Positions 16,061 to 54,169 of a stretch of DNA of 64,000 nucleotides are shown in pieces (the stretch's first letter is position 1; each line of letters begins with the position of its first letter). Origin of the DNA: Skeletonema tropicum. Lineage: Eukaryota > Bacillariophyta > Thalassiosirophyceae > Thalassiosirales > Thalassiosiraceae. The stretch covers positions 2,542,001 to 2,606,000 of the forward strand of contig CM074141.1 of the NCBI GenBank assembly GCA_037178625.1. Direction: 5' to 3'. Position numbers and translations under genes: made by a program. Under the pieces are notes generated by a model, which was given only the letters and a program-made list of their open reading frames with translations, made no database searches and was not told the DNA's origin.

Positions 16061-16062
16061 GC

Positions 16063-17371: not shown

Positions 17372-17475
17372 CCATGCCTTGTGCTTGTGCACACTCCTCC
17401 ATTCTGAGTTCTGAGCTTGATTCGATCACCCTACACTACTGCATTGTTCAACCTGTTCTTCATGCATACTACAAA
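17372..17475 (-). pseudogene. Short remnant of the zinc-finger-repeat gene
   Basis: The plus strand here (CCATGCCTTGTGCTTGTGCA, then CACTCCTCCATTCTGAG and CTACTGCATTGTTCAACC) parallels about one repeat of the minus-strand zinc-finger genes (compare 700-770). Small insertions break the frame and nothing else of the gene remains. Confidence 0.6.
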
Positions 17476-17699
17476 ATACCTCGTGAGAGAGAAAGCTCTG
17501 TTAACCCATCCCTGCCGCGCGCGCACCTCTTTTTTTTTTCGTCCATCACCATGGTGCACCTCCACCCAGTACATGCCGACACCATAATACACTACCTAAA
17601 CATAAATTTAGACGGTCCCGCTGCAGCAACACACTCTCAAATAGCATTTCTATGAAGTGGTGCCCTTGATTCTTTTCCGGCCGACGCCATCGCTACATA

Positions 17700-18053
17700 T
17701 CATGGCACCAAAGTAGAGGTGCCGGAAAATGGCATGTTGACATCGGTGCGATAATGCACTTCCGTCATGGTCTTCAGGTGAATAGTAGGAGGTGCGCCGC
17801 CACCGAACTGGTTTGCAGACGCCAACTTTATACTATTAGGCGGTTATATATCCCTTTGATAGCGTGCCTGGGCGTTATATGACGCATGCAGCGGCATGGT
17901 GAATGTAGGTGGTGAAAATGGATATTTTCCACAAAATACATCAAAAAGGAGAATGCATATATCTGACAGAAAATGAAATGAGAGGGTGCCAAAAGTCTGT
18001 GAGGTGATGACTATAATATAGCAATCAACGTGGTTGGTGTAGATATCTCTATT
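17700..18053 (-). pseudogene. Possible decayed coding stretch with one internal stop
   Basis: One minus-strand frame is open for 117 codons apart from a single TAA at 17844-17846. After that stop it reads PPNSIKLASANQFGGGAPP and TEVHYRTDVNMPFSGTSTLVP-stop; before it, FSPPTFTMPLHASYNAQARY. The composition looks protein-like, but there is no good start codon and no family was recognised. Confidence 0.25.
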
Positions 18054-18899
18054 TCATTGCGGCTACAACAATATTAGACTAGTTGGTATATAGCATTTTT
18101 TGGGGGGAAATGAAGAGCCCAATGCCATCACATACACGAGTATTTGAAGTGATATTGGTTGTGTTCATCCTGCAAGTAGGGGACCCTTTCACCCCACAAC
18201 ACCAATAGACATCTGTTGTGAGCGTTATACAGTGGATTCAGGTTATTATACGACTCCTAACAACACCATTCCTACTGGATGGCATCAAAACATCAGCGCA
18301 TGATTCGGCCTACTACTCCATTATTACATGAAATTGGCATGTAATCAATAAAACTGATAATAAATATCCATTAACATAATATATAGAAGGAGTGTGTAAT
18401 GCACCATGGCTATTAAATTACCGAATTCTGTTAAATATGAGTATATTATGAAGTTGCCCAGCATGTGCGGATTTCATGTCTGCGTAGGTTAGAGCCGTAT
18501 ACATCACAAAGACTTCGATTCGGCCACCGACGCTTACAGAAACGGAATCTGCACAAAAAATTAAGTTAGACAGAGTGTTGTTTACCATGTTTTGGGGTGT
18601 GTTGGTCCGATAGTACCATGGTTTGCCGACGGATTCGTCATGGTGGAGATGTTTTTTTGTTAGTGTGTGATGCGTGATGGCCGAGCGTACCTCCCGACCA
18701 ATATCAGTGACATGGTGATAGTTGCACAGGCGTTCTAAACTAACTAAATGGAAGACTGTTGGTCTTTGAACCAAAAGAATCGGCCTATTATTGGCTTAGT
18801 TATGGGCGGAAGTCAAAAGGAGGTAGGTACAAAGGAGGTACGCGGCAGGGATGGGTTAAGAAAGCACCTTTTGTCATTTTCTGTGCCGCTTCACAGAGG

Positions 18900-18918
18900 A
18901 CACAATCACCTGTGACAG
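18900..18918 (+). promoter_or_regulatory. 19-bp motif shared with the SNARE/zinc-finger promoter
   Basis: ACACAATCACCTGTGACAG lies 82-100 bp upstream of the ATG. It contains the near-palindrome TCACCTGTGA. The identical 19-mer occurs in opposite orientation at 55186-55204, in an otherwise different promoter. It recurs in each array unit and before the intact gene (51832-51850). Units 2, 8 and 11 carry a 6-bp insertion (TGTACA) near its 3' end. Transcription-factor binding is inferred. Confidence 0.55.
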
Positions 18919-18999
18919 TTGACAATACTCTTCAAATCAACAACGAAGCGAAGAAGTAGTGTTACGTGTTACTACGGTCGCTGCTAACTATAACTCTCC

Positions 19000-20217
19000 A
19001 TGACAATGATACCATCATCCCGAGGCAGCTATAGCCTCATCCTTGCGGTTGCTTCAATAATAATACTCCTACTTGGCCGAGCGCTTTTCTATGAAGCAAC
19101 TGCCTTTCAGCCAGCCGCTGTACATCATGTTGTACATCAAAAACATCACTACAAAACTAACAAGTTATCCATACCTCTTCGTGCAGCCAAAAAGAAGAAC
19201 GAAATCAGCAACACCGGCGACGGCGACGGCGACGATGAAGCAATAATATCGGATGTAATACCGTCCACCACCGCCACACGGAAAATGCTACTGGCCAAAC
19301 GGAAACAAACCGAAGCCGAAGGGGCCTCCTCCAAATCCTCCTCCAAACTATCCATCATGAATGACTACAAACAATCCAAAACCAAACGCTTCGACGACTA
19401 CTACGCCTACACCGCACGCTCCAAAGATGACGACGCCAACGGCCGTCGCGACAATTCCTATCTGATCGATCTCAAAAAGAAAATCGATCAAAAAATCATG
19501 AGAAACAATTGGAATCGAACGGGACAACGACGACCACGCGTCAATGATAACACTTTTCTGCAATCCTCGTCCTCGTCGGGCAGCATTACACCAGGTCAAT
19601 TACTACCCGAGGTGCACGTCCAACATGAAACGGACTCCATGCAATCATTATTAGGGTACAATCATTTCGAGGGGGAGTGGAGCGATCGCAATTCCACCAC
19701 GTATCATGTCGCCATTGTCTTTGGGAAGGGGTTGATCCAAGATCAGATATCCATCGAGTATGCCTCTCGGATACGAACACTGGTCAAACTTCTCAAGGAA
19801 GAGGAGGGATTTCGACCCAAATTGATTTGTTTTACGGGTGGCAACAAGAACAGTGACGAGGTCATGCAGGGTGCGCCTACCGATGTAGTGACATCATCAT
19901 CGATATCCGATGCATCGGCTGGATATGTCTACTTTCGACACTTGTGTGCCTCACAGGGAATCCCATTCGATCATCTCCAGACCAATGTTTGGGTAGACAA
20001 ACGGAACGGAAATGAACGTGAGACGATGGAACGTGTTGCGTCCGAATTATGGAGAAAGTACATCAAAACATTGGCGACAAAAGGGAAGAGTAATACTTAT
20101 GAATACGACAATCAACCAAATCGTCATCCTTTTCCTTGGGTGCACGATATAGATAAGATAGTACTGATGATGATGATGATAAATAATAGCGCCTCATATA
20201 GTAGAGCATTCAGATGA
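19000..20217 (+). CDS. Truncated DUF218 (YdcF-like) protein, array copy 1
   Basis: A 405-aa ORF identical to the intact protein (51932-54001) through residue 357, then 48 unrelated residues (LATKGKSNTYEYDNQPNRHP... ending SYSRAFR, with a Met run). It keeps the N-terminal hydrophobic segment (11-28), the plastid-import-like ATAFQP (33-38), the charged linker and the first half of the DUF218 fold: HVAIVFGKG (236-244), CFTGG (277-281), and the ASAGYVYFRHLCASQGIPFD helix and turn (305-324). The second half, including LVSTEYHLCN, is missing, so an active DUF218 fold is unlikely. The upstream ~125 bp equals that of the intact gene, so transcription is possible. It might be an inert by-product, a dominant-negative partner or an RNA source; none can be shown here. 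This copy has the shorter Gly-Asp run. Confidence 0.7.
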   Translation: MTMIPSSRGSYSLILAVASIIILLLGRALFYEATAFQPAAVHHVVHQKHHYKTNKLSIPLRAAKKKNEISNTGDGDGDDEAIISDVIPSTTATRKMLLAKRKQTEAEGASSKSSSKLSIMNDYKQSKTKRFDDYYAYTARSKDDDANGRRDNSYLIDLKKKIDQKIMRNNWNRTGQRRPRVNDNTFLQSSSSSGSITPGQLLPEVHVQHETDSMQSLLGYNHFEGEWSDRNSTTYHVAIVFGKGLIQDQISIEYASRIRTLVKLLKEEEGFRPKLICFTGGNKNSDEVMQGAPTDVVTSSSISDASAGYVYFRHLCASQGIPFDHLQTNVWVDKRNGNERETMERVASELWRKYIKTLATKGKSNTYEYDNQPNRHPFPWVHDIDKIVLMMMMINNSASYSRAFR

Positions 20218-21746
20218 TGCACCAATCGCATAATATTAAATAGTTAGCTTCTCTCCCTTTCACTTGTTGTAATCCCACGCACTTTACTTTATCCATTCAA
20301 ATCCACCTTTTCCTCTACTCCTTCCCTTGCAGTCGTCGTACCAAGGCAATAAGTGTCGTTTTAGAAACCTCTCATCAAGCTGTATCGATTGCTTGTGGTA
20401 TTGTATCTATTGAGACCGTACTTACGATATCGATCTTTTCGTCAATCGACCAAACTCAACTCGTACCAGCAGTACTAACTAACTACTCCAATCCTTCCAA
20501 GCTAGGGTCGCTTGTGGTTGGTTATTGTTATTGTTATTGTTATTGTTGTATCCATTATCGATAACCTCCACCTCCAACCACAAGCAACAACATCGCCGAC
20601 GATACCAATACTACTGTACTGCTTGTGGTTGGAGGTGGAGGTGGAGTTGCTGGTGTTGGGAACCTACCGTACTAGATGACGTTGGAGGAGGAGAAGGAGT
20701 TGGGAGTAAGGTAGTACTATAGTTGCTTGTGGTTGGAGTAGTATGTATTATGTATTGTAGTGGTTGGAGGAGGAAGATGACAACATCGTCGTCAGCAATG
20801 ATGTTGCTTGTGGTTGGAGTTGTAGTAGTACCATCGCCGAGCGTAGTCGAGAGGCAAGTTGATGTTGATTTTGTGTTGGATAGTAAGAAGTAAGATGGAC
20901 GATAGACGATACCATACCGTAACTAAGTTCATGATGAGGCTGATCTACGTGTCATTCTTCAGCGAAGCGTTTGGATCTCACCCGTGCCAACTCTCTGGAT
21001 CTTATTGCATTAAAAGGAAGTGTGTTGTGCGAGGCCCCCCGGCCGAGCTCTGTTTATTGTCTTCGGATCTTACAGCATAAAAGTGGTCGCTTTTTTGGAT
21101 CTTCGACGTACCGAGTACCGACTGTCTATGGATGAGGCTGATCGGCGATCTGTAGTGTAATTGCGAGGGCTTTGCCTGAGCACTGTTTATCAATTTTGAT
21201 GGTAATGATGGTACTAATCGATACAGCTTGAAGAGAGCTTTCGATTGGTGGTCATATTGTTGATTTTGATCATTTTCATTTTGACATATCTTGTGAAATT
21301 ATGGCTGGAAAGTCGGATCTGTCCGAGCCGATCACTTTCTAACCCCCCTTTTTTTAACCAAGCAGATTGAACAAAAGTGCTCCAATCAAGCTGATTATAC
21401 GCCTAATCGATAGAGCACACTCTCAGCTTTCCAAAACGCCACTTATCGTCCTCATAGGACGGCTAGGACACAAGATATCGGCCATTTTGTCATCTTGAGG
21501 TTGGCCGGCTAAGTACTAAGTAAGTACATATACATAGCTTGAGCTGAGATGAGGTCCGTTCAAAAAGTGAGAAGATGATGCCGCTTTGCAAATCTTTAGA
21601 AAGACGCTCTTTTGGCATTTTCTGTGCCGCTTCACAGAGGACACAATCACCTGTGACATGTACAGTTGACAATACTCTTCAAATCAACAACGAAGCGAAG
21701 AAGTAGTGTTACGTGTTACTACGGTCGCTGCTAACTATAACTCTCC

Positions 21747-22970
21747 ATGACAATGATACCATCATCCCGAGGCAGCTATAGCCTCATCCTTGCGGTTGCT
21801 TCAATAATAATACTCCTACTTGGCCGAGCGCTTTTCTATGAAGCAACTGCCTTTCAGCCAGCCGCTGTACATCATGTTGTACATCAAAAACATCACTACA
21901 AAACTAACAAGTTATCCATACCTCTTCGTGCAGCCAAAAAGAAGAACGAAATCAGCAACACCGGCGACGGCGACGGCGACGGCGACGATGAAGCAATAAT
22001 ATCGGATGTAATACCGTCCACCACCGCCACACGGAAAATGCTACTGGCCAAACGGAAACAAACCGAAGCCGAAGGGGCCTCCTCCAAATCCTCCTCCAAA
22101 CTATCCATCATGAATGACTACAAACAATCCAAAACCAAACGCTTCGACGACTACTACGCCTACACCGCACGCTCCAAAGATGACGACGCCAACGGCCGTC
22201 GCGACAATTCCTATCTGATCGATCTCAAAAAGAAAATCGATCAAAAAATCATGAGAAACAATTGGAATCGAACGGGACAACGACGACCACGCGTCAATGA
22301 TAACACTTTTCTGCAATCCTCGTCCTCGTCGGGCAGCATTACACCAGGTCAATTACTACCCGAGGTGCACGTCCAACATGAAACGGACTCCATGCAATCA
22401 TTATTAGGGTACAATCATTTCGAGGGGGAGTGGAGCGATCGCAATTCCACCACGTATCATGTCGCCATTGTCTTTGGGAAGGGGTTGATCCAAGATCAGA
22501 TATCCATCGAGTATGCCTCTCGGATACGAACACTGGTCAAACTTCTCAAGGAAGAGGAGGGATTTCGACCCAAATTGATTTGTTTTACGGGTGGCAACAA
22601 GAACAGTGACGAGGTCATGCAGGGTGCGCCTACCGATGTAGTGACATCATCATCGATATCCGATGCATCGGCTGGATATGTCTACTTTCGACACTTGTGT
22701 GCCTCACAGGGAATCCCATTCGATCATCTCCAGACCAATGTTTGGGTAGACAAACGGAACGGAAATGAACGTGAGACGATGGAACGTGTTGCGTCCGAAT
22801 TATGGAGAAAGTACATCAAAACATTGGCGACAAAAGGGAAGAGTAATACTTATGAATACGACAATCAACCAAATCGTCATCCTTTTCCTTGGGTGCACGA
22901 TATAGATAAGATAGTACTGATGATGATGATGATAAATAATAGCGCCTCATATAGTAGAGCATTCAGATGA
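21747..22970 (+). CDS. Truncated DUF218 protein, array copy 2
   Basis: 407 aa; one extra GGCGAC unit adds Gly-Asp near residue 78, otherwise the same protein as copy 1. The 19-bp upstream motif is interrupted by TGTACA (about 21659-21664). Confidence 0.7.
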   Translation: MTMIPSSRGSYSLILAVASIIILLLGRALFYEATAFQPAAVHHVVHQKHHYKTNKLSIPLRAAKKKNEISNTGDGDGDGDDEAIISDVIPSTTATRKMLLAKRKQTEAEGASSKSSSKLSIMNDYKQSKTKRFDDYYAYTARSKDDDANGRRDNSYLIDLKKKIDQKIMRNNWNRTGQRRPRVNDNTFLQSSSSSGSITPGQLLPEVHVQHETDSMQSLLGYNHFEGEWSDRNSTTYHVAIVFGKGLIQDQISIEYASRIRTLVKLLKEEEGFRPKLICFTGGNKNSDEVMQGAPTDVVTSSSISDASAGYVYFRHLCASQGIPFDHLQTNVWVDKRNGNERETMERVASELWRKYIKTLATKGKSNTYEYDNQPNRHPFPWVHDIDKIVLMMMMINNSASYSRAFR

Positions 22971-24493
22971 TGCACCAATCGCATAATATTAAATAGTTAG
23001 CTTCTCTCCCTTTCACTTGTTGTAATCCCACGCACTTTACTTTATCCATTCAAATCCACCTTTTCCTCTACTCCTTCCCTTGCAGTCGTCGTACCAAGGC
23101 AATAAGTGTCGTTTTAGAAACCTCTCATCAAGCTGTATCGATTGCTTGTGGTATTGTATCTATTGAGACCGTACTTACGATATCGATCTTTTCGTCAATC
23201 GACCAAACTCAACTCGTACCAGCAGTACTAACTAACTACTCCAATCCTTCCAAGCTAGGGTCGCTTGTGGTTGGTTATTGTTATTGTTATTGTTATTGTT
23301 GTATCCATTATCGATAACCTCCACCTCCAACCACAAGCAACAACATCGCCGACGATACCAATACTACTGTACTGCTTGTGGTTGGAGGTGGAGGTGGAGT
23401 TGCTGGTGTTGGGAACCTACCGTACTAGATGACGTTGGAGGAGGAGAAGGAGTTGGGAGTAAGGTAGTACTATAGTTGCTTGTGGTTGGAGTAGTATGTA
23501 TTATGTATTGTAGTGGTTGGAGGAGGAAGATGACAACATCGTCGTCAGCAATGATGTTGCTTGTGGTTGGAGTTGTAGTAGTACCATCGCCGAGCGTAGT
23601 CGAGAGGCAAGTTGATGTTGATTTTGTGTTGGATAGTAAGAAGTAAGATGGACGATAGACGATACCATACCGTAACTAAGTTCATGATGAGGCTGATCTA
23701 CGTGTCATTCTTCAGCGAAGCGTTTGGATCTCACCCGTGCCAACTCTCTGGATCTTATTGCATTAAAAGGAAGTGTGTTGTGCGAGGCCCCCCGGCCGAG
23801 CTCTGTTTATTGTCTTCGGATCTTACAGCATAAAAGTGGTCGCTTTTTTGGATCTTCGACGTACCGAGTACCGACTGTCTATGGATGAGGCTGATCGGCG
23901 ATCTGTAGTGTAATTGCGAGGGCTTTGCCTGAGCACTGTTTATCAATTTTGATGGTAATGATGGTACTAATCGATACAGCTTGAAGAGAGCTTTCGATTG
24001 GTGGTCATATTGTTGATTTTGATCATTTTCATTTTGACATATCTTGTGAAATTATGGCTGGAAAGTCGGATCTGTCCGAGCCGATCACTTTCTAACCCCC
24101 CTTTTTTTAACCAAGCAGATTGAACAAAAGTGCTCCAATCAAGCTGATTATACGCCTAATCGATAGAGCACACTCTCAGCTTTCCAAAACGCCACTTATC
24201 GTCCTCATAGGACGGCTAGGACACAAGATATCGGCCATTTTGTCATCTTGAGGTTGGCCGGCTAAGTACTAAGTAAGTACATATACATAGCTTGAGCTGA
24301 GATGAGGTCCGTTCAAAAAGTGAGAAGATGATGCCGCTTTGCAAATCTTTAGAAAGACGCTCTTTTGGCATTTTCTGTGCCGCTTCACAGAGGACACAAT
24401 CACCTGTGACAGTTGACAATACTCTTCAAATCAACAACGAAGCGAAGAAGTAGTGTTACGTGTTACTACGGTCGCTGCTAACTATAACTCTCC

Positions 24494-25717
24494 ATGACAA
24501 TGATACCATCATCCCGAGGCAGCTATAGCCTCATCCTTGCGGTTGCTTCAATAATAATACTCCTACTTGGCCGAGCGCTTTTCTATGAAGCAACTGCCTT
24601 TCAGCCAGCCGCTGTACATCATGTTGTACATCAAAAACATCACTACAAAACTAACAAGTTATCCATACCTCTTCGTGCAGCCAAAAAGAAGAACGAAATC
24701 AGCAACACCGGCGACGGCGACGGCGACGGCGACGATGAAGCAATAATATCGGATGTAATACCGTCCACCACCGCCACACGGAAAATGCTACTGGCCAAAC
24801 GGAAACAAACCGAAGCCGAAGGGGCCTCCTCCAAATCCTCCTCCAAACTATCCATCATGAATGACTACAAACAATCCAAAACCAAACGCTTCGACGACTA
24901 CTACGCCTACACCGCACGCTCCAAAGATGACGACGCCAACGGCCGTCGCGACAATTCCTATCTGATCGATCTCAAAAAGAAAATCGATCAAAAAATCATG
25001 AGAAACAATTGGAATCGAACGGGACAACGACGACCACGCGTCAATGATAACACTTTTCTGCAATCCTCGTCCTCGTCGGGCAGCATTACACCAGGTCAAT
25101 TACTACCCGAGGTGCACGTCCAACATGAAACGGACTCCATGCAATCATTATTAGGGTACAATCATTTCGAGGGGGAGTGGAGCGATCGCAATTCCACCAC
25201 GTATCATGTCGCCATTGTCTTTGGGAAGGGGTTGATCCAAGATCAGATATCCATCGAGTATGCCTCTCGGATACGAACACTGGTCAAACTTCTCAAGGAA
25301 GAGGAGGGATTTCGACCCAAATTGATTTGTTTTACGGGTGGCAACAAGAACAGTGACGAGGTCATGCAGGGTGCGCCTACCGATGTAGTGACATCATCAT
25401 CGATATCCGATGCATCGGCTGGATATGTCTACTTTCGACACTTGTGTGCCTCACAGGGAATCCCATTCGATCATCTCCAGACCAATGTTTGGGTAGACAA
25501 ACGGAACGGAAATGAACGTGAGACGATGGAACGTGTTGCGTCCGAATTATGGAGAAAGTACATCAAAACATTGGCGACAAAAGGGAAGAGTAATACTTAT
25601 GAATACGACAATCAACCAAATCGTCATCCTTTTCCTTGGGTGCACGATATAGATAAGATAGTACTGATGATGATGATGATAAATAATAGCGCCTCATATA
25701 GTAGAGCATTCAGATGA
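24494..25717 (+). CDS. Truncated DUF218 protein, array copy 3
   Basis: 407 aa, uninterrupted upstream motif. Its unit is marked by a single T deletion at about 25860 and by CCTGTAGC in place of CATAGC near 27032; both are outside the ORF. Confidence 0.7.
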   Translation: MTMIPSSRGSYSLILAVASIIILLLGRALFYEATAFQPAAVHHVVHQKHHYKTNKLSIPLRAAKKKNEISNTGDGDGDGDDEAIISDVIPSTTATRKMLLAKRKQTEAEGASSKSSSKLSIMNDYKQSKTKRFDDYYAYTARSKDDDANGRRDNSYLIDLKKKIDQKIMRNNWNRTGQRRPRVNDNTFLQSSSSSGSITPGQLLPEVHVQHETDSMQSLLGYNHFEGEWSDRNSTTYHVAIVFGKGLIQDQISIEYASRIRTLVKLLKEEEGFRPKLICFTGGNKNSDEVMQGAPTDVVTSSSISDASAGYVYFRHLCASQGIPFDHLQTNVWVDKRNGNERETMERVASELWRKYIKTLATKGKSNTYEYDNQPNRHPFPWVHDIDKIVLMMMMINNSASYSRAFR

Positions 25718-27241
25718 TGCACCAATCGCATAATATTAAATAGTTAGCTTCTCTCCCTTTCACTTGTTGTAATCCCACGCACTTTACTTTATCCATTCAA
25801 ATCCACCTTTTCCTCTACTCCTTCCCTTGCAGTCGTCGTACCAAGGCAATAAGTGTCGTTTAGAAACCTCTCATCAAGCTGTATCGATTGCTTGTGGTAT
25901 TGTATCTATTGAGACCGTACTTACGATATCGATCTTTTCGTCAATCGACCAAACTCAACTCGTACCAGCAGTACTAACTAACTACTCCAATCCTTCCAAG
26001 CTAGGGTCGCTTGTGGTTGGTTATTGTTATTGTTATTGTTATTGTTGTATCCATTATCGATAACCTCCACCTCCAACCACAAGCAACAACATCGCCGACG
26101 ATACCAATACTACTGTACTGCTTGTGGTTGGAGGTGGAGGTGGAGTTGCTGGTGTTGGGAACCTACCGTACTAGATGACGTTGGAGGAGGAGAAGGAGTT
26201 GGGAGTAAGGTAGTACTATAGTTGCTTGTGGTTGGAGTAGTATGTATTATGTATTGTAGTGGTTGGAGGAGGAAGATGACAACATCGTCGTCAGCAATGA
26301 TGTTGCTTGTGGTTGGAGTTGTAGTAGTACCATCGCCGAGCGTAGTCGAGAGGCAAGTTGATGTTGATTTTGTGTTGGATAGTAAGAAGTAAGATGGACG
26401 ATAGACGATACCATACCGTAACTAAGTTCATGATGAGGCTGATCTACGTGTCATTCTTCAGCGAAGCGTTTGGATCTCACCCGTGCCAACTCTCTGGATC
26501 TTATTGCATTAAAAGGAAGTGTGTTGTGCGAGGCCCCCCGGCCGAGCTCTGTTTATTGTCTTCGGATCTTACAGCATAAAAGTGGTCGCTTTTTTGGATC
26601 TTCGACGTACCGAGTACCGACTGTCTATGGATGAGGCTGATCGGCGATCTGTAGTGTAATTGCGAGGGCTTTGCCTGAGCACTGTTTATCAATTTTGATG
26701 GTAATGATGGTACTAATCGATACAGCTTGAAGAGAGCTTTCGATTGGTGGTCATATTGTTGATTTTGATCATTTTCATTTTGACATATCTTGTGAAATTA
26801 TGGCTGGAAAGTCGGATCTGTCCGAGCCGATCACTTTCTAACCCCCCTTTTTTTAACCAAGCAGATTGAACAAAAGTGCTCCAATCAAGCTGATTATACG
26901 CCTAATCGATAGAGCACACTCTCAGCTTTCCAAAACGCCACTTATCGTCCTCATAGGACGGCTAGGACACAAGATATCGGCCATTTTGTCATCTTGAGGT
27001 TGGCCGGCTAAGTACTAAGTAAGTACATATACCTGTAGCTTGAGCTGAGATGAGGTCCGTTCAAAAAGTGAGAAGATGATGCCGCTTTGCAAATCTTTAG
27101 AAAGACGCTCTTTTGGCATTTTCTGTGCCGCTTCACAGAGGACACAATCACCTGTGACAGTTGACAATACTCTTCAAATCAACAACGAAGCGAAGAAGTA
27201 GTGTTACGTGTTACTACGGTCGCTGCTAACTATAACTCTCC

Positions 27242-28459
27242 ATGACAATGATACCATCATCCCGAGGCAGCTATAGCCTCATCCTTGCGGTTGCTTCAAT
27301 AATAATACTCCTACTTGGCCGAGCGCTTTTCTATGAAGCAACTGCCTTTCAGCCAGCCGCTGTACATCATGTTGTACATCAAAAACATCACTACAAAACT
27401 AACAAGTTATCCATACCTCTTCGTGCAGCCAAAAAGAAGAACGAAATCAGCAACACCGGCGACGGCGACGGCGACGATGAAGCAATAATATCGGATGTAA
27501 TACCGTCCACCACCGCCACACGGAAAATGCTACTGGCCAAACGGAAACAAACCGAAGCCGAAGGGGCCTCCTCCAAATCCTCCTCCAAACTATCCATCAT
27601 GAATGACTACAAACAATCCAAAACCAAACGCTTCGACGACTACTACGCCTACACCGCACGCTCCAAAGATGACGACGCCAACGGCCGTCGCGACAATTCC
27701 TATCTGATCGATCTCAAAAAGAAAATCGATCAAAAAATCATGAGAAACAATTGGAATCGAACGGGACAACGACGACCACGCGTCAATGATAACACTTTTC
27801 TGCAATCCTCGTCCTCGTCGGGCAGCATTACACCAGGTCAATTACTACCCGAGGTGCACGTCCAACATGAAACGGACTCCATGCAATCATTATTAGGGTA
27901 CAATCATTTCGAGGGGGAGTGGAGCGATCGCAATTCCACCACGTATCATGTCGCCATTGTCTTTGGGAAGGGGTTGATCCAAGATCAGATATCCATCGAG
28001 TATGCCTCTCGGATACGAACACTGGTCAAACTTCTCAAGGAAGAGGAGGGATTTCGACCCAAATTGATTTGTTTTACGGGTGGCAACAAGAACAGTGACG
28101 AGGTCATGCAGGGTGCGCCTACCGATGTAGTGACATCATCATCGATATCCGATGCATCGGCTGGATATGTCTACTTTCGACACTTGTGTGCCTCACAGGG
28201 AATCCCATTCGATCATCTCCAGACCAATGTTTGGGTAGACAAACGGAACGGAAATGAACGTGAGACGATGGAACGTGTTGCGTCCGAATTATGGAGAAAG
28301 TACATCAAAACATTGGCGACAAAAGGGAAGAGTAATACTTATGAATACGACAATCAACCAAATCGTCATCCTTTTCCTTGGGTGCACGATATAGATAAGA
28401 TAGTACTGATGATGATGATGATAAATAATAGCGCCTCATATAGTAGAGCATTCAGATGA
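27242..28459 (+). CDS. Truncated DUF218 protein, array copy 4
   Basis: 405 aa, same protein as copy 1. The unit has one T deleted in GATTTTGATC near 29506, giving 2,740 bp. Confidence 0.7.
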   Translation: MTMIPSSRGSYSLILAVASIIILLLGRALFYEATAFQPAAVHHVVHQKHHYKTNKLSIPLRAAKKKNEISNTGDGDGDDEAIISDVIPSTTATRKMLLAKRKQTEAEGASSKSSSKLSIMNDYKQSKTKRFDDYYAYTARSKDDDANGRRDNSYLIDLKKKIDQKIMRNNWNRTGQRRPRVNDNTFLQSSSSSGSITPGQLLPEVHVQHETDSMQSLLGYNHFEGEWSDRNSTTYHVAIVFGKGLIQDQISIEYASRIRTLVKLLKEEEGFRPKLICFTGGNKNSDEVMQGAPTDVVTSSSISDASAGYVYFRHLCASQGIPFDHLQTNVWVDKRNGNERETMERVASELWRKYIKTLATKGKSNTYEYDNQPNRHPFPWVHDIDKIVLMMMMINNSASYSRAFR

Positions 28460-42174: not shown

Positions 42175-43696
42175 TGCACCAATCGCATAATATTAAATAG
42201 TTAGCTTCTCTCCCTTTCACTTGTTGTAATCCCACGCACTTTACTTTATCCATTCAAATCCACCTTTTCCTCTACTCCTTCCCTTGCAGTCGTCGTACCA
42301 AGGCAATAAGTGTCGTTTTAGAAACCTCTCATCAAGCTGTATCGATTGCTTGTGGTATTGTATCTATTGAGACCGTACTTACGATATCGATCTTTTCGTC
42401 AATCGACCAAACTCAACTCGTACCAGCAGTACTAACTAACTACTCCAATCCTTCCAAGCTAGGGTCGCTTGTGGTTGTTATTGTTATTGTTATTGTTATT
42501 GTTGTATCCATTATCGATAACCTCCACCTCCAACCACAAGCAACAACATCGCCGACGATACCAATACTACTGTACTGCTTGTGGTTGGAGGTGGAGGTGG
42601 AGTTGCTGGTGTTGGGAACCTACCGTACTAGATGACGTTGGAGGAGGAGAAGGAGTTGGGAGTAAGGTAGTACTATAGTTGCTTGTGGTTGGAGTAGTAT
42701 GTATTATGTATTGTAGTGGTTGGAGGAGGAAGATGACAACATCGTCGTCAGCAATGATGTTGCTTGTGGTTGGAGTTGTAGTAGTACCATCGCCGAGCGT
42801 AGTCGAGAGGCAAGTTGATGTTGATTTTGTGTTGGATAGTAAGAAGTAAGATGGACGATAGACGATACCATACCGTAACTAAGTTCATGATGAGGCTGAT
42901 CTACGTGTCATTCTTCAGCGAAGCGTTTGGATCTCACCCGTGCCAACTCTCTGGATCTTATTGCATTAAAAGGAAGTGTGTTGTGCGAGGCCCCCCGGCC
43001 GAGCTCTGTTTATTGTCTTCGGATCTTACAGCATAAAAGTGGTCGCTTTTTTGGATCTTCGACGTACCGAGTACCGACTGTCTATGGATGAGGCTGATCG
43101 GCGATCTGTAGTGTAATTGCGAGGGCTTTGCCTGAGCACTGTTTATCAATTTTGATGGTAATGATGGTACTAATCGATACAGCTTGAAGAGAGCTTTCGA
43201 TTGGTGGTCATATTGTTGATTTTGATCATTTTCATTTTGACATATCTTGTGAAATTATGGCTGGAAAGTCGGATCTGTCCGAGCCGATCACTTTCTAACC
43301 CCCCTTTTTTTAACCAAGCAGATTGAACAAAAGTGCTCCAATCAAGCTGATTATACGCCTAATCGATAGAGCACACTCTCAGCTTTCCAAAACGCCACTT
43401 ATCGTCCTCATAGGACGGCTAGGACACAAGATATCGGCCATTTTGTCATCTTGAGGTTGGCCGGCTAAGTACTAAGTAAGTACATATACATAGCTTGAGC
43501 TGAGATGAGGTCCGTTCAAAAAGTGAGAAGATGATGCCGCTTTGCAAATCTTTAGAAAGACGCTCTTTTGGCATTTTCTGTGCCGCTTCACAGAGGACAC
43601 AATCACCTGTGACAGTTGACAATACTCTTCAAATCAACAACGAAGCGAAGAAGTAGTGTTACGTGTTACTACGGTCGCTGCTAACTATAACTCTCC

Positions 43697-44914
43697 ATGA
43701 CAATGATACCATCATCCCGAGGCAGCTATAGCCTCATCCTTGCGGTTGCTTCAATAATAATACTCCTACTTGGCCGAGCGCTTTTCTATGAAGCAACTGC
43801 CTTTCAGCCAGCCGCTGTACATCATGTTGTACATCAAAAACATCACTACAAAACTAACAAGTTATCCATACCTCTTCGTGCAGCCAAAAAGAAGAACGAA
43901 ATCAGCAACACCGGCGACGGCGACGGCGACGATGAAGCAATAATATCGGATGTAATACCGTCCACCACCGCCACACGGAAAATGCTACTGGCCAAACGGA
44001 AACAAACCGAAGCCGAAGGGGCCTCCTCCAAATCCTCCTCCAAACTATCCATCATGAATGACTACAAACAATCCAAAACCAAACGCTTCGACGACTACTA
44101 CGCCTACACCGCACGCTCCAAAGATGACGACGCCAACGGCCGTCGCGACAATTCCTATCTGATCGATCTCAAAAAGAAAATCGATCAAAAAATCATGAGA
44201 AACAATTGGAATCGAACGGGACAACGACGACCACGCGTCAATGATAACACTTTTCTGCAATCCTCGTCCTCGTCGGGCAGCATTACACCAGGTCAATTAC
44301 TACCCGAGGTGCACGTCCAACATGAAACGGACTCCATGCAATCATTATTAGGGTACAATCATTTCGAGGGGGAGTGGAGCGATCGCAATTCCACCACGTA
44401 TCATGTCGCCATTGTCTTTGGGAAGGGGTTGATCCAAGATCAGATATCCATCGAGTATGCCTCTCGGATACGAACACTGGTCAAACTTCTCAAGGAAGAG
44501 GAGGGATTTCGACCCAAATTGATTTGTTTTACGGGTGGCAACAAGAACAGTGACGAGGTCATGCAGGGTGCGCCTACCGATGTAGTGACATCATCATCGA
44601 TATCCGATGCATCGGCTGGATATGTCTACTTTCGACACTTGTGTGCCTCACAGGGAATCCCATTCGATCATCTCCAGACCAATGTTTGGGTAGACAAACG
44701 GAACGGAAATGAACGTGAGACGATGGAACGTGTTGCGTCCGAATTATGGAGAAAGTACATCAAAACATTGGCGACAAAAGGGAAGAGTAATACTTATGAA
44801 TACGACAATCAACCAAATCGTCATCCTTTTCCTTGGGTGCACGATATAGATAAGATAGTACTGATGATGATGATGATAAATAATAGCGCCTCATATAGTA
44901 GAGCATTCAGATGA
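43697..44914 (+). CDS. Truncated DUF218 protein, array copy 10
   Basis: 405 aa in a 2,741-bp unit with no private variant noticed, like copies 7 and 12. Confidence 0.7.
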   Translation: MTMIPSSRGSYSLILAVASIIILLLGRALFYEATAFQPAAVHHVVHQKHHYKTNKLSIPLRAAKKKNEISNTGDGDGDDEAIISDVIPSTTATRKMLLAKRKQTEAEGASSKSSSKLSIMNDYKQSKTKRFDDYYAYTARSKDDDANGRRDNSYLIDLKKKIDQKIMRNNWNRTGQRRPRVNDNTFLQSSSSSGSITPGQLLPEVHVQHETDSMQSLLGYNHFEGEWSDRNSTTYHVAIVFGKGLIQDQISIEYASRIRTLVKLLKEEEGFRPKLICFTGGNKNSDEVMQGAPTDVVTSSSISDASAGYVYFRHLCASQGIPFDHLQTNVWVDKRNGNERETMERVASELWRKYIKTLATKGKSNTYEYDNQPNRHPFPWVHDIDKIVLMMMMINNSASYSRAFR

Positions 44915-46443
44915 TGCACCAATCGCATAATATTAAATAGTTAGCTTCTCTCCCTTTCACTTGTTGTAATCCCACGCACTTTACTTTATCCATTCAAATC
45001 CACCTTTTCCTCTACTCCTTCCCTTGCAGTCGTCGTACCAAGGCAATAAGTGTCGTTTTAGAAACCTCTCATCAAGCTGTATCGATTGCTTGTGGTATTG
45101 TATCTATTGAGACCGTACTTACGATATCGATCTTTTCGTCAATCGACCAAACTCAACTCGTACCAGCAGTACTAACTAACTACTCCAATCCTTCCAAGCT
45201 AGGGTCGCTTGTGGTTGGTTATTGTTATTGTTATTGTTATTGTTGTATCCATTATCGATAACCTCCACCTCCAACCACAAGCAACAACATCGCCGACGAT
45301 ACCAATACTACTGTACTGCTTGTGGTTGGAGGTGGAGGTGGAGTTGCTGGTGTTGGGAACCTACCGTACTAGATGACGTTGGAGGAGGAGAAGGAGTTGG
45401 GAGTAAGGTAGTACTATAGTTGCTTGTGGTTGGAGTAGTATGTATTATGTATTGTAGTGGTTGGAGGAGGAAGATGACAACATCGTCGTCAGCAATGATG
45501 TTGCTTGTGGTTGGAGTTGTAGTAGTACCATCGCCGAGCGTAGTCGAGAGGCAAGTTGATGTTGATTTTGTGTTGGATAGTAAGAAGTAAGATGGACGAT
45601 AGACGATACCATACCGTAACTAAGTTCATGATGAGGCTGATCTACGTGTCATTCTTCAGCGAAGCGTTTGGATCTCACCCGTGCCAACTCTCTGGATCTT
45701 ATTGCATTAAAAGGAAGTGTGTTGTGCGAGGCCCCCCGGCCGAGCTCTGTTTATTGTCTTCGGATCTTACAGCATAAAAGTGGTCGCTTTTTTGGATCTT
45801 CGACGTACCGAGTACCGACTGTCTATGGATGAGGCTGATCGGCGATCTGTAGTGTAATTGCGAGGGCTTTGCCTGAGCACTGTTTATCAATTTTGATGGT
45901 AATGATGGTACTAATCGATACAGCTTGAAGAGAGCTTTCGATTGGTGGTCATATTGTTGATTTTGATCATTTTCATTTTGACATATCTTGTGAAATTATG
46001 GCTGGAAAGTCGGATCTGTCCGAGCCGATCACTTTCTAACCCCCCTTTTTTTAACCAAGCAGATTGAACAAAAGTGCTCCAATCAAGCTGATTATACGCC
46101 TAATCGATAGAGCACACTCTCAGCTTTCCAAAACGCCACTTATCGTCCTCATAGGACGGCTAGGACACAAGATATCGGCCATTTTGTCATCTTGAGGTTG
46201 GCCGGCTAAGTACTAAGTAAGTACATATACATAGCTTGAGCTGAGATGAGGTCCGTTCAAAAAGTGAGAAGATGATGCCGCTTTGCAAATCTTTAGAAAG
46301 ACGCTCTTTTGGCATTTTCTGTGCCGCTTCACAGAGGACACAATCACCTGTGACATGTACAGTTGACAATACTCTTCAAATCAACAACGAAGCGAAGAAG
46401 TAGTGTTACGTGTTACTACGGTCGCTGCTAACTATAACTCTCC

Positions 46444-47667
46444 ATGACAATGATACCATCATCCCGAGGCAGCTATAGCCTCATCCTTGCGGTTGCTTCA
46501 ATAATAATACTCCTACTTGGCCGAGCGCTTTTCTATGAAGCAACTGCCTTTCAGCCAGCCGCTGTACATCATGTTGTACATCAAAAACATCACTACAAAA
46601 CTAACAAGTTATCCATACCTCTTCGTGCAGCCAAAAAGAAGAACGAAATCAGCAACACCGGCGACGGCGACGGCGACGGCGACGATGAAGCAATAATATC
46701 GGATGTAATACCGTCCACCACCGCCACACGGAAAATGCTACTGGCCAAACGGAAACAAACCGAAGCCGAAGGGGCCTCCTCCAAATCCTCCTCCAAACTA
46801 TCCATCATGAATGACTACAAACAATCCAAAACCAAACGCTTCGACGACTACTACGCCTACACCGCACGCTCCAAAGATGACGACGCCAACGGCCGTCGCG
46901 ACAATTCCTATCTGATCGATCTCAAAAAGAAAATCGATCAAAAAATCATGAGAAACAATTGGAATCGAACGGGACAACGACGACCACGCGTCAATGATAA
47001 CACTTTTCTGCAATCCTCGTCCTCGTCGGGCAGCATTACACCAGGTCAATTACTACCCGAGGTGCACGTCCAACATGAAACGGACTCCATGCAATCATTA
47101 TTAGGGTACAATCATTTCGAGGGGGAGTGGAGCGATCGCAATTCCACCACGTATCATGTCGCCATTGTCTTTGGGAAGGGGTTGATCCAAGATCAGATAT
47201 CCATCGAGTATGCCTCTCGGATACGAACACTGGTCAAACTTCTCAAGGAAGAGGAGGGATTTCGACCCAAATTGATTTGTTTTACGGGTGGCAACAAGAA
47301 CAGTGACGAGGTCATGCAGGGTGCGCCTACCGATGTAGTGACATCATCATCGATATCCGATGCATCGGCTGGATATGTCTACTTTCGACACTTGTGTGCC
47401 TCACAGGGAATCCCATTCGATCATCTCCAGACCAATGTTTGGGTAGACAAACGGAACGGAAATGAACGTGAGACGATGGAACGTGTTGCGTCCGAATTAT
47501 GGAGAAAGTACATCAAAACATTGGCGACAAAAGGGAAGAGTAATACTTATGAATACGACAATCAACCAAATCGTCATCCTTTTCCTTGGGTGCACGATAT
47601 AGATAAGATAGTACTGATGATGATGATGATAAATAATAGCGCCTCATATAGTAGAGCATTCAGATGA
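46444..47667 (+). CDS. Truncated DUF218 protein, array copy 11
   Basis: 407 aa. It carries the same three marks as copy 8 (TGTACA insertion, long Gly-Asp run, A at 48106) but not that copy's two T deletions. Confidence 0.7.
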   Translation: MTMIPSSRGSYSLILAVASIIILLLGRALFYEATAFQPAAVHHVVHQKHHYKTNKLSIPLRAAKKKNEISNTGDGDGDGDDEAIISDVIPSTTATRKMLLAKRKQTEAEGASSKSSSKLSIMNDYKQSKTKRFDDYYAYTARSKDDDANGRRDNSYLIDLKKKIDQKIMRNNWNRTGQRRPRVNDNTFLQSSSSSGSITPGQLLPEVHVQHETDSMQSLLGYNHFEGEWSDRNSTTYHVAIVFGKGLIQDQISIEYASRIRTLVKLLKEEEGFRPKLICFTGGNKNSDEVMQGAPTDVVTSSSISDASAGYVYFRHLCASQGIPFDHLQTNVWVDKRNGNERETMERVASELWRKYIKTLATKGKSNTYEYDNQPNRHPFPWVHDIDKIVLMMMMINNSASYSRAFR

Positions 47668-49190
47668 TGCACCAATCGCATAATATTAAATAGTTAGCTT
47701 CTCTCCCTTTCACTTGTTGTAATCCCACGCACTTTACTTTATCCATTCAAATCCACCTTTTCCTCTACTCCTTCCCTTGCAGTCGTCGTACCAAGGCAAT
47801 AAGTGTCGTTTTAGAAACCTCTCATCAAGCTGTATCGATTGCTTGTGGTATTGTATCTATTGAGACCGTACTTACGATATCGATCTTTTCGTCAATCGAC
47901 CAAACTCAACTCGTACCAGCAGTACTAACTAACTACTCCAATCCTTCCAAGCTAGGGTCGCTTGTGGTTGGTTATTGTTATTGTTATTGTTATTGTTGTA
48001 TCCATTATCGATAACCTCCACCTCCAACCACAAGCAACAACATCGCCGACGATACCAATACTACTGTACTGCTTGTGGTTGGAGGTGGAGGTGGAGTTGC
48101 TGGTGATGGGAACCTACCGTACTAGATGACGTTGGAGGAGGAGAAGGAGTTGGGAGTAAGGTAGTACTATAGTTGCTTGTGGTTGGAGTAGTATGTATTA
48201 TGTATTGTAGTGGTTGGAGGAGGAAGATGACAACATCGTCGTCAGCAATGATGTTGCTTGTGGTTGGAGTTGTAGTAGTACCATCGCCGAGCGTAGTCGA
48301 GAGGCAAGTTGATGTTGATTTTGTGTTGGATAGTAAGAAGTAAGATGGACGATAGACGATACCATACCGTAACTAAGTTCATGATGAGGCTGATCTACGT
48401 GTCATTCTTCAGCGAAGCGTTTGGATCTCACCCGTGCCAACTCTCTGGATCTTATTGCATTAAAAGGAAGTGTGTTGTGCGAGGCCCCCCGGCCGAGCTC
48501 TGTTTATTGTCTTCGGATCTTACAGCATAAAAGTGGTCGCTTTTTTGGATCTTCGACGTACCGAGTACCGACTGTCTATGGATGAGGCTGATCGGCGATC
48601 TGTAGTGTAATTGCGAGGGCTTTGCCTGAGCACTGTTTATCAATTTTGATGGTAATGATGGTACTAATCGATACAGCTTGAAGAGAGCTTTCGATTGGTG
48701 GTCATATTGTTGATTTTGATCATTTTCATTTTGACATATCTTGTGAAATTATGGCTGGAAAGTCGGATCTGTCCGAGCCGATCACTTTCTAACCCCCCTT
48801 TTTTTAACCAAGCAGATTGAACAAAAGTGCTCCAATCAAGCTGATTATACGCCTAATCGATAGAGCACACTCTCAGCTTTCCAAAACGCCACTTATCGTC
48901 CTCATAGGACGGCTAGGACACAAGATATCGGCCATTTTGTCATCTTGAGGTTGGCCGGCTAAGTACTAAGTAAGTACATATACATAGCTTGAGCTGAGAT
49001 GAGGTCCGTTCAAAAAGTGAGAAGATGATGCCGCTTTGCAAATCTTTAGAAAGACGCTCTTTTGGCATTTTCTGTGCCGCTTCACAGAGGACACAATCAC
49101 CTGTGACAGTTGACAATACTCTTCAAATCAACAACGAAGCGAAGAAGTAGTGTTACGTGTTACTACGGTCGCTGCTAACTATAACTCTCC

Positions 49191-50408
49191 ATGACAATGA
49201 TACCATCATCCCGAGGCAGCTATAGCCTCATCCTTGCGGTTGCTTCAATAATAATACTCCTACTTGGCCGAGCGCTTTTCTATGAAGCAACTGCCTTTCA
49301 GCCAGCCGCTGTACATCATGTTGTACATCAAAAACATCACTACAAAACTAACAAGTTATCCATACCTCTTCGTGCAGCCAAAAAGAAGAACGAAATCAGC
49401 AACACCGGCGACGGCGACGGCGACGATGAAGCAATAATATCGGATGTAATACCGTCCACCACCGCCACACGGAAAATGCTACTGGCCAAACGGAAACAAA
49501 CCGAAGCCGAAGGGGCCTCCTCCAAATCCTCCTCCAAACTATCCATCATGAATGACTACAAACAATCCAAAACCAAACGCTTCGACGACTACTACGCCTA
49601 CACCGCACGCTCCAAAGATGACGACGCCAACGGCCGTCGCGACAATTCCTATCTGATCGATCTCAAAAAGAAAATCGATCAAAAAATCATGAGAAACAAT
49701 TGGAATCGAACGGGACAACGACGACCACGCGTCAATGATAACACTTTTCTGCAATCCTCGTCCTCGTCGGGCAGCATTACACCAGGTCAATTACTACCCG
49801 AGGTGCACGTCCAACATGAAACGGACTCCATGCAATCATTATTAGGGTACAATCATTTCGAGGGGGAGTGGAGCGATCGCAATTCCACCACGTATCATGT
49901 CGCCATTGTCTTTGGGAAGGGGTTGATCCAAGATCAGATATCCATCGAGTATGCCTCTCGGATACGAACACTGGTCAAACTTCTCAAGGAAGAGGAGGGA
50001 TTTCGACCCAAATTGATTTGTTTTACGGGTGGCAACAAGAACAGTGACGAGGTCATGCAGGGTGCGCCTACCGATGTAGTGACATCATCATCGATATCCG
50101 ATGCATCGGCTGGATATGTCTACTTTCGACACTTGTGTGCCTCACAGGGAATCCCATTCGATCATCTCCAGACCAATGTTTGGGTAGACAAACGGAACGG
50201 AAATGAACGTGAGACGATGGAACGTGTTGCGTCCGAATTATGGAGAAAGTACATCAAAACATTGGCGACAAAAGGGAAGAGTAATACTTATGAATACGAC
50301 AATCAACCAAATCGTCATCCTTTTCCTTGGGTGCACGATATAGATAAGATAGTACTGATGATGATGATGATAAATAATAGCGCCTCATATAGTAGAGCAT
50401 TCAGATGA
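49191..50408 (+). CDS. Truncated DUF218 protein, array copy 12
   Basis: 405 aa in a base-length unit. It is the last truncated copy, followed directly by the unit that holds the complete gene. Confidence 0.7.
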   Translation: MTMIPSSRGSYSLILAVASIIILLLGRALFYEATAFQPAAVHHVVHQKHHYKTNKLSIPLRAAKKKNEISNTGDGDGDDEAIISDVIPSTTATRKMLLAKRKQTEAEGASSKSSSKLSIMNDYKQSKTKRFDDYYAYTARSKDDDANGRRDNSYLIDLKKKIDQKIMRNNWNRTGQRRPRVNDNTFLQSSSSSGSITPGQLLPEVHVQHETDSMQSLLGYNHFEGEWSDRNSTTYHVAIVFGKGLIQDQISIEYASRIRTLVKLLKEEEGFRPKLICFTGGNKNSDEVMQGAPTDVVTSSSISDASAGYVYFRHLCASQGIPFDHLQTNVWVDKRNGNERETMERVASELWRKYIKTLATKGKSNTYEYDNQPNRHPFPWVHDIDKIVLMMMMINNSASYSRAFR

Positions 50409-51931
50409 TGCACCAATCGCATAATATTAAATAGTTAGCTTCTCTCCCTTTCACTTGTTGTAATCCCACGCACTTTACTTTATCCATTCAAATCCACCTT
50501 TTCCTCTACTCCTTCCCTTGCAGTCGTCGTACCAAGGCAATAAGTGTCGTTTTAGAAACCTCTCATCAAGCTGTATCGATTGCTTGTGGTATTGTATCTA
50601 TTGAGACCGTACTTACGATATCGATCTTTTCGTCAATCGACCAAACTCAACTCGTACCAGCAGTACTAACTAACTACTCCAATCCTTCCAAGCTAGGGTC
50701 GCTTGTGGTTGGTTATTGTTATTGTTATTGTTATTGTTGTATCCATTATCGATAACCTCCACCTCCAACCACAAGCAACAACATCGCCGACGATACCAAT
50801 ACTACTGTACTGCTTGTGGTTGGAGGTGGAGGTGGAGTTGCTGGTGTTGGGAACCTACCGTACTAGATGACGTTGGAGGAGGAGAAGGAGTTGGGAGTAA
50901 GGTAGTACTATAGTTGCTTGTGGTTGGAGTAGTATGTATTATGTATTGTAGTGGTTGGAGGAGGAAGATGACAACATCGTCGTCAGCAATGATGTTGCTT
51001 GTGGTTGGAGTTGTAGTAGTACCATCGCCGAGCGTAGTCGAGAGGCAAGTTGATGTTGATTTTGTGTTGGATAGTAAGAAGTAAGATGGACGATAGACGA
51101 TACCATACCGTAACTAAGTTCATGATGAGGCTGATCTACGTGTCATTCTTCAGCGAAGCGTTTGGATCTCACCCGTGCCAACTCTCTGGATCTTATTGCA
51201 TTAAAAGGAAGTGTGTTGTGCGAGGCCCCCCGGCCGAGCTCTGTTTATTGTCTTCGGATCTTACAGCATAAAAGTGGTCGCTTTTTTGGATCTTCGACGT
51301 ACCGAGTACCGACTGTCTATGGATGAGGCTGATCGGCGATCTGTAGTGTAATTGCGAGGGCTTTGCCTGAGCACTGTTTATCAATTTTGATGGTAATGAT
51401 GGTACTAATCGATACAGCTTGAAGAGAGCTTTCGATTGGTGGTCATATTGTTGATTTTGATCATTTTCATTTTGACATATCTTGTGAAATTATGGCTGGA
51501 AAGTCGGATCTGTCCGAGCCGATCACTTTCTAACCCCCCTTTTTTTAACCAAGCAGATTGAACAAAAGTGCTCCAATCAAGCTGATTATACGCCTAATCG
51601 ATAGAGCACACTCTCAGCTTTCCAAAACGCCACTTATCGTCCTCATAGGACGGCTAGGACACAAGATATCGGCCATTTTGTCATCTTGAGGTTGGCCGGC
51701 TAAGTACTAAGTAAGTACATATACATAGCTTGAGCTGAGATGAGGTCCGTTCAAAAAGTGAGAAGATGATGCCGCTTTGCAAATCTTTAGAAAGACGCTC
51801 TTTTGGCATTTTCTGTGCCGCTTCACAGAGGACACAATCACCTGTGACAGTTGACAATACTCTTCAAATCAACAACGAAGCGAAGAAGTAGTGTTACGTG
51901 TTACTACGGTCGCTGCTAACTATAACTCTCC

Positions 51932-54001
51932 ATGACAATGATACCATCATCCCGAGGCAGCTATAGCCTCATCCTTGCGGTTGCTTCAATAATAATACTC
52001 CTACTTGGCCGAGCGCTTTTCTATGAAGCAACTGCCTTTCAGCCAGCCGCTGTACATCATGTTGTACATCAAAAACATCACTACAAAACTAACAAGTTAT
52101 CCATACCTCTTCGTGCAGCCAAAAAGAAGAACGAAATCAGCAACACCGGCGACGGCGACGGCGACGATGAAGCAATAATATCGGATGTAATACCGTCCAC
52201 CACCGCCACACGGAAAATGCTACTGGCCAAACGGAAACAAACCGAAGCCGAAGGGGCCTCCTCCAAATCCTCCTCCAAACTATCCATCATGAATGACTAC
52301 AAACAATCCAAAACCAAACGCTTCGACGACTACTACGCCTACACCGCACGCTCCAAAGATGACGACGCCAACGGCCGTCGCGACAATTCCTATCTGATCG
52401 ATCTCAAAAAGAAAATCGATCAAAAAATCATGAGAAACAATTGGAATCGAACGGGACAACGACGACCACGCGTCAATGATAACACTTTTCTGCAATCCTC
52501 GTCCTCGTCGGGCAGCATTACACCAGGTCAATTACTACCCGAGGTGCACGTCCAACATGAAACGGACTCCATGCAATCATTATTAGGGTACAATCATTTC
52601 GAGGGGGAGTGGAGCGATCGCAATTCCACCACGTATCATGTCGCCATTGTCTTTGGGAAGGGGTTGATCCAAGATCAGATATCCATCGAGTATGCCTCTC
52701 GGATACGAACACTGGTCAAACTTCTCAAGGAAGAGGAGGGATTTCGACCCAAATTGATTTGTTTTACGGGTGGCAACAAGAACAGTGACGAGGTCATGCA
52801 GGGTGCGCCTACCGATGTAGTGACATCATCATCGATATCCGATGCATCGGCTGGATATGTCTACTTTCGACACTTGTGTGCCTCACAGGGAATCCCATTC
52901 GATCATCTCCAGACCAATGTTTGGGTAGACAAACGGAACGGAAATGAACGTGAGACGATGGAACGTGTTGCGTCCGAATTATGGAGAAAGTACATCAAAA
53001 CATGGCTTCAGGAACGACCATTGACTGAACGTCTCAATCAACATTACGGAGTTGGGTGGCATATACTCGAACGACGTGTGGATATACACTTTACATTGGT
53101 GTCGACAGAGTATCATTTGTGTAATTTGAATGATGTTCATCATCGATCTCCGTCCAAGAGTTTTTTACAGCCGTTGGTATCGTTAAGGGGGTTGGTTGGG
53201 TCGGATCGATGGGTGAATAAGGATGAGTTGGAGGCGATGGATCCAAGTTATAGTTCGTCAGTTCATGTGAGTAGCAGTGGTGGTGGTAATACTGGATCAT
53301 CATCGCTATTACCAACGTCCGAGAGTGGCACGGCAAGATTTGCAGGGATTGAGAATAGTGTGGATACGTCATGGAGTTTTCAGTATGCGACCTTTCCCTT
53401 TTTGCATGGGAAGGAGGATTCGATTGTGTTTTTGGGACAGTGTTATTTGCTGGGGGAGGAGTTGACTCCGCTTTTGGTGAATATGAAGGGAGTTGTGGAG
53501 CAGGTAAGTTGCAATGTGATGTGATAATTATTTGGTGTGAACGGTTGTGCCACTCTCTCTAGAATTCTTCTAATCTCACAATTATTGTTCTGCATCTTAC
53601 TTGTTCATCAAAATAATAATGTATCAATTCAGACGGAATTCTTCCAACGAGACAACTATCTACTTCTAACCTCCATCCGACGATCACTAGTCTCCCTCGT
53701 GGAGGCATTATACACCGACAAAGGCCAATCCATCCGAGCAGGAGTCATCAAATACTTTGAAAGTCAGGGACGCAACCGATTCACAAAGGAAGATGTCAAA
53801 ATTATCGTCCTATTGGAATCTGCTCTATTGAACTTGGGCCGATGTATCGATTTGGTAAAGCCTGCTGGATTACTTGCCGGTTCTGTTCCTGCTCCCACTT
53901 GGGCTAGAGCATTAGATGCATTAGAGAAGAGTATGAACAACATTCAGGTTGTGTGTGATCCGGATCAACCGTTGGATCCAAAGGATTGGGGCAAGCTTTA
54001 G
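51932..54001 (+). CDS. Intact plastid-targeted DUF218 (YdcF/SanA-like) protein, two exons
   Basis: Exon 1 is 51932-53503 (524 codons) and exon 2 is 53633-54001. The 129-bp intron (CAG/GTAAGT ... TTCAG/ACG) is phase 0, giving 646 aa. Residues 11-28 are hydrophobic and end in a signal-peptide-like ATAFQP, where the Phe after the cleavage site is the hallmark of diatom plastid presequences. A charged low-complexity region (65-200) precedes the DUF218 core: VAIVFGKG (237-244), CFTGG (277-281), GIPFD (320-324), ERETMERVASELW (339-351) and IHFTLVSTEYHLCNL (385-399). DUF218 proteins such as YdcF, SanA and ElyC are linked to envelope or nucleotide-type ligands in bacteria; the plastid role is unknown. 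The C-terminal ~240 residues, partly Ser/Gly-rich, are outside the usual domain. This is the only complete copy, at the right end of the array, convergent with the SNARE gene (168 bp between stops). Confidence 0.82.
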
Positions 54002-54169
54002 GTTTACTTATTGCACGATCTATCCACGTGTTTTTCAATGTTATATGTTTCGCTGCCCAACTGCGCTCCACGAAGCAAATGTGTTGCTGTCTCGAGGAGC
54101 AATCCAACCATCTAAGTATCCGCTTCTCACCAAAATTGAATCATCCCATCAAACCATCCATCACATATG

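Follow-up and report, generated by a model that had tools for sequence, protein, structure and literature searches.

We describe a tandem array of twelve truncated gene copies in Skeletonema tropicum that runs into one intact copy of the same gene. The array probably arose by a tandem duplication that had one breakpoint inside the gene and a dispersed repeat, designated E, at the junction; it would then have grown by unequal exchange, leaving the truncated reading frames as by-products. E is present in many other arrays, which suggests a repeatedly used route to gene-fragment arrays and not a role for this particular array. Taken alone, such a series of truncated copies would be ordinary. A single repeat family with an exact 15-base word at more than 20 array loci, several of them carrying parts of conserved genes and leading into a longer or intact copy, would provide a handle on how such arrays are born and grow. 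In assemblies like this one, fragment arrays may also be included in gene counts and "expanded families". Among titles and opening lines of abstracts in the open-licence literature, we found no description of arrays of this kind in diatoms.

The array and a second, inverted locus

The array lies in a window of 64,000 nucleotides, the whole stretch of DNA analyzed here, which corresponds to scaffold C15:2542001-2606000 of a 78.4-Mb genome and contains no N bases. We use X for the repeated part of the gene (Table 1). Thirteen X anchors (18875, 21616 ... 51807) are separated by 12 regular spacings of 2,733-2,753 bp each, which bears out an earlier, sequence-only reading that had proposed 12 near-identical head-to-tail units with the first 357 codons. 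The order is X-E-X-E-...-X-rest of gene: twelve copies of X each lead into a spacer of ~1.54 kb (1,537-1,545 bp), X and spacer together forming the unit, and the thirteenth X continues into the rest of the gene. The upstream part of X, thought to be ~125 bp in every unit, is 125 bp in most and 131 bp in units 2, 8 and 11, which have a 6-bp insertion in common. The junctions placed by the same reading at the tail (20072-20217) and at 53003 proved exact, and its count of ten open truncated copies also held: in 10 of 12 units the frame is open, encodes 405 or 407 aa and ends in an identical 48-residue tail. Short indels shift the frame in units 6 (X from 32604) and 9 (X from 40829).

The 12 units vary at 13 places, including one plain substitution (T to A, confined to units 8 and 11) and one mixed place (unit 3); the others are short indels. 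The 6-bp insertion in units 2, 8 and 11 is no random read error. A regular three-unit higher-order repeat was considered and rejected: three variants are common to units 8 and 11, and the remainder are non-periodic.

Table 1. Positions of features in the window
Feature	Position	Strand	Remarks
Partial E copy	10479..10881	+	single in window, 8 kb before array; 74-81% identity to right part of array's E; contains second E word
Left flank of first truncated copy	17564..18868	.	1 mismatch in 1,313 columns vs inverted second locus; no E present
X of unit 1	18875..20071	+	125 bp upstream region and codons 1-357
Truncated open frame of unit 1	19000..20217	+	405 aa; final 48 residues translated from spacer
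Spacer of unit 1	20072..21615	+	1,544 bp; most or all is element E; dispersed relatives, inverted sub-terminal motifs; without long open frame
15-base word GACAATCAACCAAAT	20107..20121	+	on the left of E; found once in each of the 12 units
E core	20720..21482	+	common to other tandem arrays, 72-76% identity
Units 2-12 (X and spacer)	21616..51806	+	
Near-identical X starts, units 2-12	21616, 24369, 27117, 29857, 32604, 35337, 38078, 40829, 43572, 46313, 49066		
X start of intact gene	51807		
Intact gene	51932..54001	+	ATG at 51932, stop at 54001; exon 1 51932-53503, intron 53504-53632, exon 2 53633-54001; 646 aa; YdcF-like fold (model)
SNP patch	53032..54233	.	28 SNPs vs inverted second locus, protein unchanged

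The gene recurs in inverted orientation at C15:2411462-2415791, a second locus ~145 kb away from the array, where a single truncated copy and an intact one make up the minimal form X-E-X-rest of gene. What had been called the only complete gene is therefore the only one in the window, and one of two in the genome. A genome-wide search with the X-start word (up to 2 mismatches) returned 15 places, of which two belong to the inverted locus and the other 13 to the window. The two loci are 99.4% alike and colinear from 17564 to the window end and on into the scaffold tail, except in the number of units; this difference, 12 truncated copies versus 1, is a count that rests on an assembly of continuous long reads (CLR). 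Their 646-residue proteins are identical, and X of the two intact copies differs by no substitution. Compared with X in the window, the truncated copy at the inverted locus shows two substitutions and a short insertion. The left flank diverges by 1 in 1,313 columns and positions 54234-58200 by 3 SNPs; the 5,819 columns of a neighboring subtilase array contain gaps and a single mismatch. Homogenization of X between the loci was considered, given no SNPs in X versus 28 just downstream, and was dropped because both flanks are near-identical too and the SNP patch is itself odd. Farther to the left, window positions 5741-17564 (~11.8 kb) are replaced by ~0.5 kb at the inverted locus, and 4451-5741 matches at 99.9%.

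A dispersed repeat in many arrays

The spacer is a dispersed repeat, E, from which the 48-residue tail of the truncated proteins is translated. A search with the spacer identified relatives at 72-76% identity in other tandem arrays (40 of 1,382 candidates scored). Each DNA search with E scored 40 of about 1,300 candidates, and array copies served as queries, so that the array linkage of E partly follows from this choice. The aligned relatives have a common core that ends near the repeated gene part. We saw no coding capacity in E, and its extreme ends yielded no terminal inverted repeats. Inverted core motifs occur on the spacer's left side in eight of the nine array units examined (window, C68, C12, C106, C6, C22, C8 and C13) and absent from that of C18; two other E copies examined had none that matched. 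The C22 copy of E was set aside as a candidate single copy, since it adjoins an array.

The 15-base word on the left side of E occurs at 110 places genome-wide, versus ~0.15 expected by base count, and the reversed word at none. Same-strand runs with a spacing of no more than 4 kb account for 94 of the first 100 places; for 100 random places the number was 1.1 on average and 8 at most. The remaining six are single, one of them at the inverted locus. A second word, from the right part of E, occurs at 260 places, and under a looser rule (spacing up to 10 kb) 86 of the first 100 fall into 10 runs and 14 are single. The longest E-word runs among the matches listed are at C4:564518-635447 (32 places) and C11:421166-488325 (22 places). 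At C16:1868729-1873246 the second word recurs with a 286-bp period, apparently as a short tandem repeat derived from part of E.

The 15-base word follows the truncated gene exactly in the window, C12/C106 and C8. Within 3 mismatches it is absent from the C68, C6, C22, C13 and C18 array pieces and from two other E copies. Ten further places have differing DNA upstream, related DNA downstream and differing reading frames. Judged from these comparisons, the word is preserved as DNA: it stays exact in arrays with about one-quarter divergence between their E cores, and its reading frame varies.

When the E-spacer and word matches listed, a part of the totals, were pooled and C16 was omitted, 23 loci had three or more units. 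Among these scaffolds, C12/C106, C23/C68 and C4/C77 are probably alleles of each other. In each of the seven genes with readable orientation, E has the same strand as the repeated gene part and lies upstream of it. Unit lengths are similar, mostly 2.1-3.4 kb. A longer or intact copy at one array end was found in three other gene families, encoding a BRCT-domain protein (which we take to be RFC1-like), a secreted Cys-rich protein and a prenyltransferase. The BRCT-domain array on C12 has three truncated frames (438-445 aa) leading into one longer frame (712 aa); that on C106 has three (438-440 aa) leading into one of 704 aa, together with two decayed copies (146 and 98 aa). E also precedes the first truncated BRCT copy, and therefore the form seen in the window is not universal. 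The Cys-rich array on C5, judged by open frame, likewise leads from truncated copies into a longer frame, the last unit listed having at least 414 residues and being still open; an inner unit on C22 has 341 residues between stops. In the prenyltransferase array on C6 the layout is mirrored, a 485-residue frame coming first and fragments after it. Additional E arrays involve a PQ-loop gene on C18, an unnamed frame on C8, and a histidine-phosphatase gene, presumably PGAM-like, with truncated copies on C23, in an array that breaks off at a run of N, and on C68. Two longer, near-identical copies of this gene lie ~270 kb apart on one scaffold, at C23:157457 and 428057.

Origin of the array

In the window, E abuts codon 357 on one side and a point ~130 bp before the start codon on the other. 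The founding event may have been a Bar-type exchange between an E inside the gene on one chromosome and an E just upstream of it on another, giving the minimal form; alternatively, a transposition reaction could have given the same minimal product. Unequal exchange between X-E units would then have raised their number from one to twelve. With the right breakpoint in the gene and the left one before it, truncated copies followed by the intact gene would result automatically. The layout needs no selection, because a tandem duplication with one breakpoint in the gene always leaves it. E would be expected at the junction if E copies supplied homology or ends, and the truncated frames would be by-products, still open because the copies are young.

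Several findings argue for such a duplication. E relatives recur in other tandem arrays, with 94 of 100 listed word places in runs, and the minimal X-E-X form exists at the second C15 locus. Units 8 and 11 share variants that their neighbors lack, as unequal exchange or conversion would leave. The BRCT-domain (C12, C106) and Cys-rich (C5) arrays have the same layout, and the prenyltransferase array on C6 has its mirror image. As a point against the duplication, E copies are not observed at both founding sites. The neighboring subtilase array lacks E, and therefore E is not needed for arrays here; whole-gene amplification, which suits that array, was rejected for the X-E array.

Known systems offer partial parallels. 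In the Bar duplication of Drosophila, a transposable element is located at the junction. Bar is described as a product of duplication and unequal crossing over (PMC3924832). The diatom case resembles it in direct tandem duplication and in a repeat element at the junction, and its copy number may likewise have changed by unequal exchange; at both C15 loci direct repeats of a host segment do have the dispersed E between them. It differs in that a 1.2-kb gene fragment is repeated here, versus a large segment in Bar, and in that there are up to 12 units and many loci with one repeat family. Duplications of the Ac/Ds type have 8-bp target duplications at their breakpoints. Alternative transposition of Ac/Ds is reported to generate tandem direct duplications (PMC3744419). 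In these, too, the junction between the directly repeated segments is occupied by a transposable element. In the diatom, by contrast, no terminal inverted repeats were found at the extreme ends of E, and the duplications have expanded to arrays. Helitrons and Helentrons have typical ends with a 3' hairpin, and also sub-terminal inverted repeats. Tandem arrays of these elements have been described (PMC12628747; see also PMC4067079 and PMC7492417). E is similar to them as a non-coding dispersed element with candidate sub-terminal inverted motifs, head-to-tail arrays and adjoining host gene pieces. However, the diatom arrays run into an intact host gene in place.

A rival idea is that E builds arrays itself, by a rolling-circle or site-specific reaction at a conserved end that copies E and neighboring DNA head to tail. 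The exactness of the 15-base word between diverged cores, the constant position and strand of E before the gene part, the similar unit lengths and the rolling-circle Helitron arrays in the account cited above (PMC12628747) are all consistent with it. Nevertheless, we consider it unlikely: the arrays are located at the native gene and run into the intact copy, where a mobile product would need recombination to arrive, and E has no visible coding capacity. It is similarly doubtful that head-to-tail arrays of adjoining DNA are actively built by E as a so far undescribed element whose 15-base end site is fixed; many of the fragment arrays in this genome would then share one mechanism.

It is improbable that the copy number is an assembly product, i.e., that the short array of one haplotype was expanded from CLR reads and a misplaced haplotig gave rise to the inverted copy. 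According to the assembly report (PMC11032307), the genome was assembled from PacBio CLR reads with an N50 of 18 kb, compared with a 34-kb array, and was polished with Arrow and Pilon. For this reason, neither the number of units nor the single-base indels interrupting units 6 and 9 can be taken as certain. The same report gives a heterozygosity of 0.73% and states that redundant allelic contigs may remain (PMC11032307). In addition, the second locus has just one truncated copy, and the scaffold terminates inside another array. On the other hand, the window has no N, variants are common to subsets of units, the truncated frame also occurs on a contig of 2,914 bases (as protein P0009), several arrays are present on two scaffolds, and the junction itself is found at both C15 loci. 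The second locus probably represents either the other haplotype or a duplicate of recent origin. Its likeliest reading is a haplotig placed inverted at the scaffold end, which is favored because of the heterozygosity and the possible residual allelic contigs; the alternative is a recent inverted duplication. A telomere fold-back was rejected, as the scaffold ends in the subtilase array and the last 9,174 bases contain no TTAGGG or CCCTAA.

The intact gene, the truncated frames and their neighborhood

The closest relative of the intact protein outside this genome is a protein of S. marinoi, at 82% across its full length. The sequence-only reading had labeled the gene as DUF218. Pfam gave no DUF218 match to the 646-aa protein at E-values up to 1, and a PF02698 profile search of the genome matched only elsewhere. 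PF02698 matches were weak and present in 3 of 45 relatives (best E-value 0.0023), and hhalign of the protein against DUF218 gave 1.2%. A PDB sequence-profile search (best E-value 0.1) did not return YdcF, and the best Foldseek hits (E-value 0.016) were tRNA synthetases. The best match of the modeled 310-residue core (mean pLDDT 74.8), however, was E. coli YdcF (PDB 3ca8), at 11% identity. The label is thus supported by the YdcF-like fold of the model, and by neither Pfam nor a sequence-profile link.

Retention of the truncated copies for a function, whether as a dominant half-domain protein, by titration of a plastid partner or as a small-RNA source, is very improbable. Ten of 12 frames are open, the N-terminus is plastid-like by eye (ATAF-QP, putative targeting), and every copy retains 125-131 bp upstream; yet openness is expected at such an age. 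Codon 357 corresponds to core residue 143 of 310 and is predicted to lie within a helix, so that the truncated copies would lack the remainder of the modeled core. The tail is E sequence and is absent from other relatives: 87 of 89 have no 5-residue word in common with it, P0087 has one, and P0009 is the window's own protein. The truncated BRCT copies, which are older, also decay. Relative to the intact copy on the same scaffold, truncated copies carry 7-14 base differences on C12 and 13-14 on C106, with dN/dS of 0.45-0.62; the test is a weak one, since even the intact gene is under little constraint here (dN 0.0088 and dS 0.0070 between the two intact copies). The array and the open frames proposed earlier are upheld, the proposals of titration, dominance and small RNAs find no support, and the layout can be explained without selection.

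The neighboring array consists of a plastid-type subtilase gene on the minus strand with a period of ~2.33 kb. It occupies window positions 58256-64000 and continues through C15:2606001-2615174, where the scaffold ends inside it; no E element was found in this array. Three genes rich in WRKY19-type zinc fingers (Pfam PF24906) are also present in the window, at 566-1402, 4707-5603 and 55288-56247.
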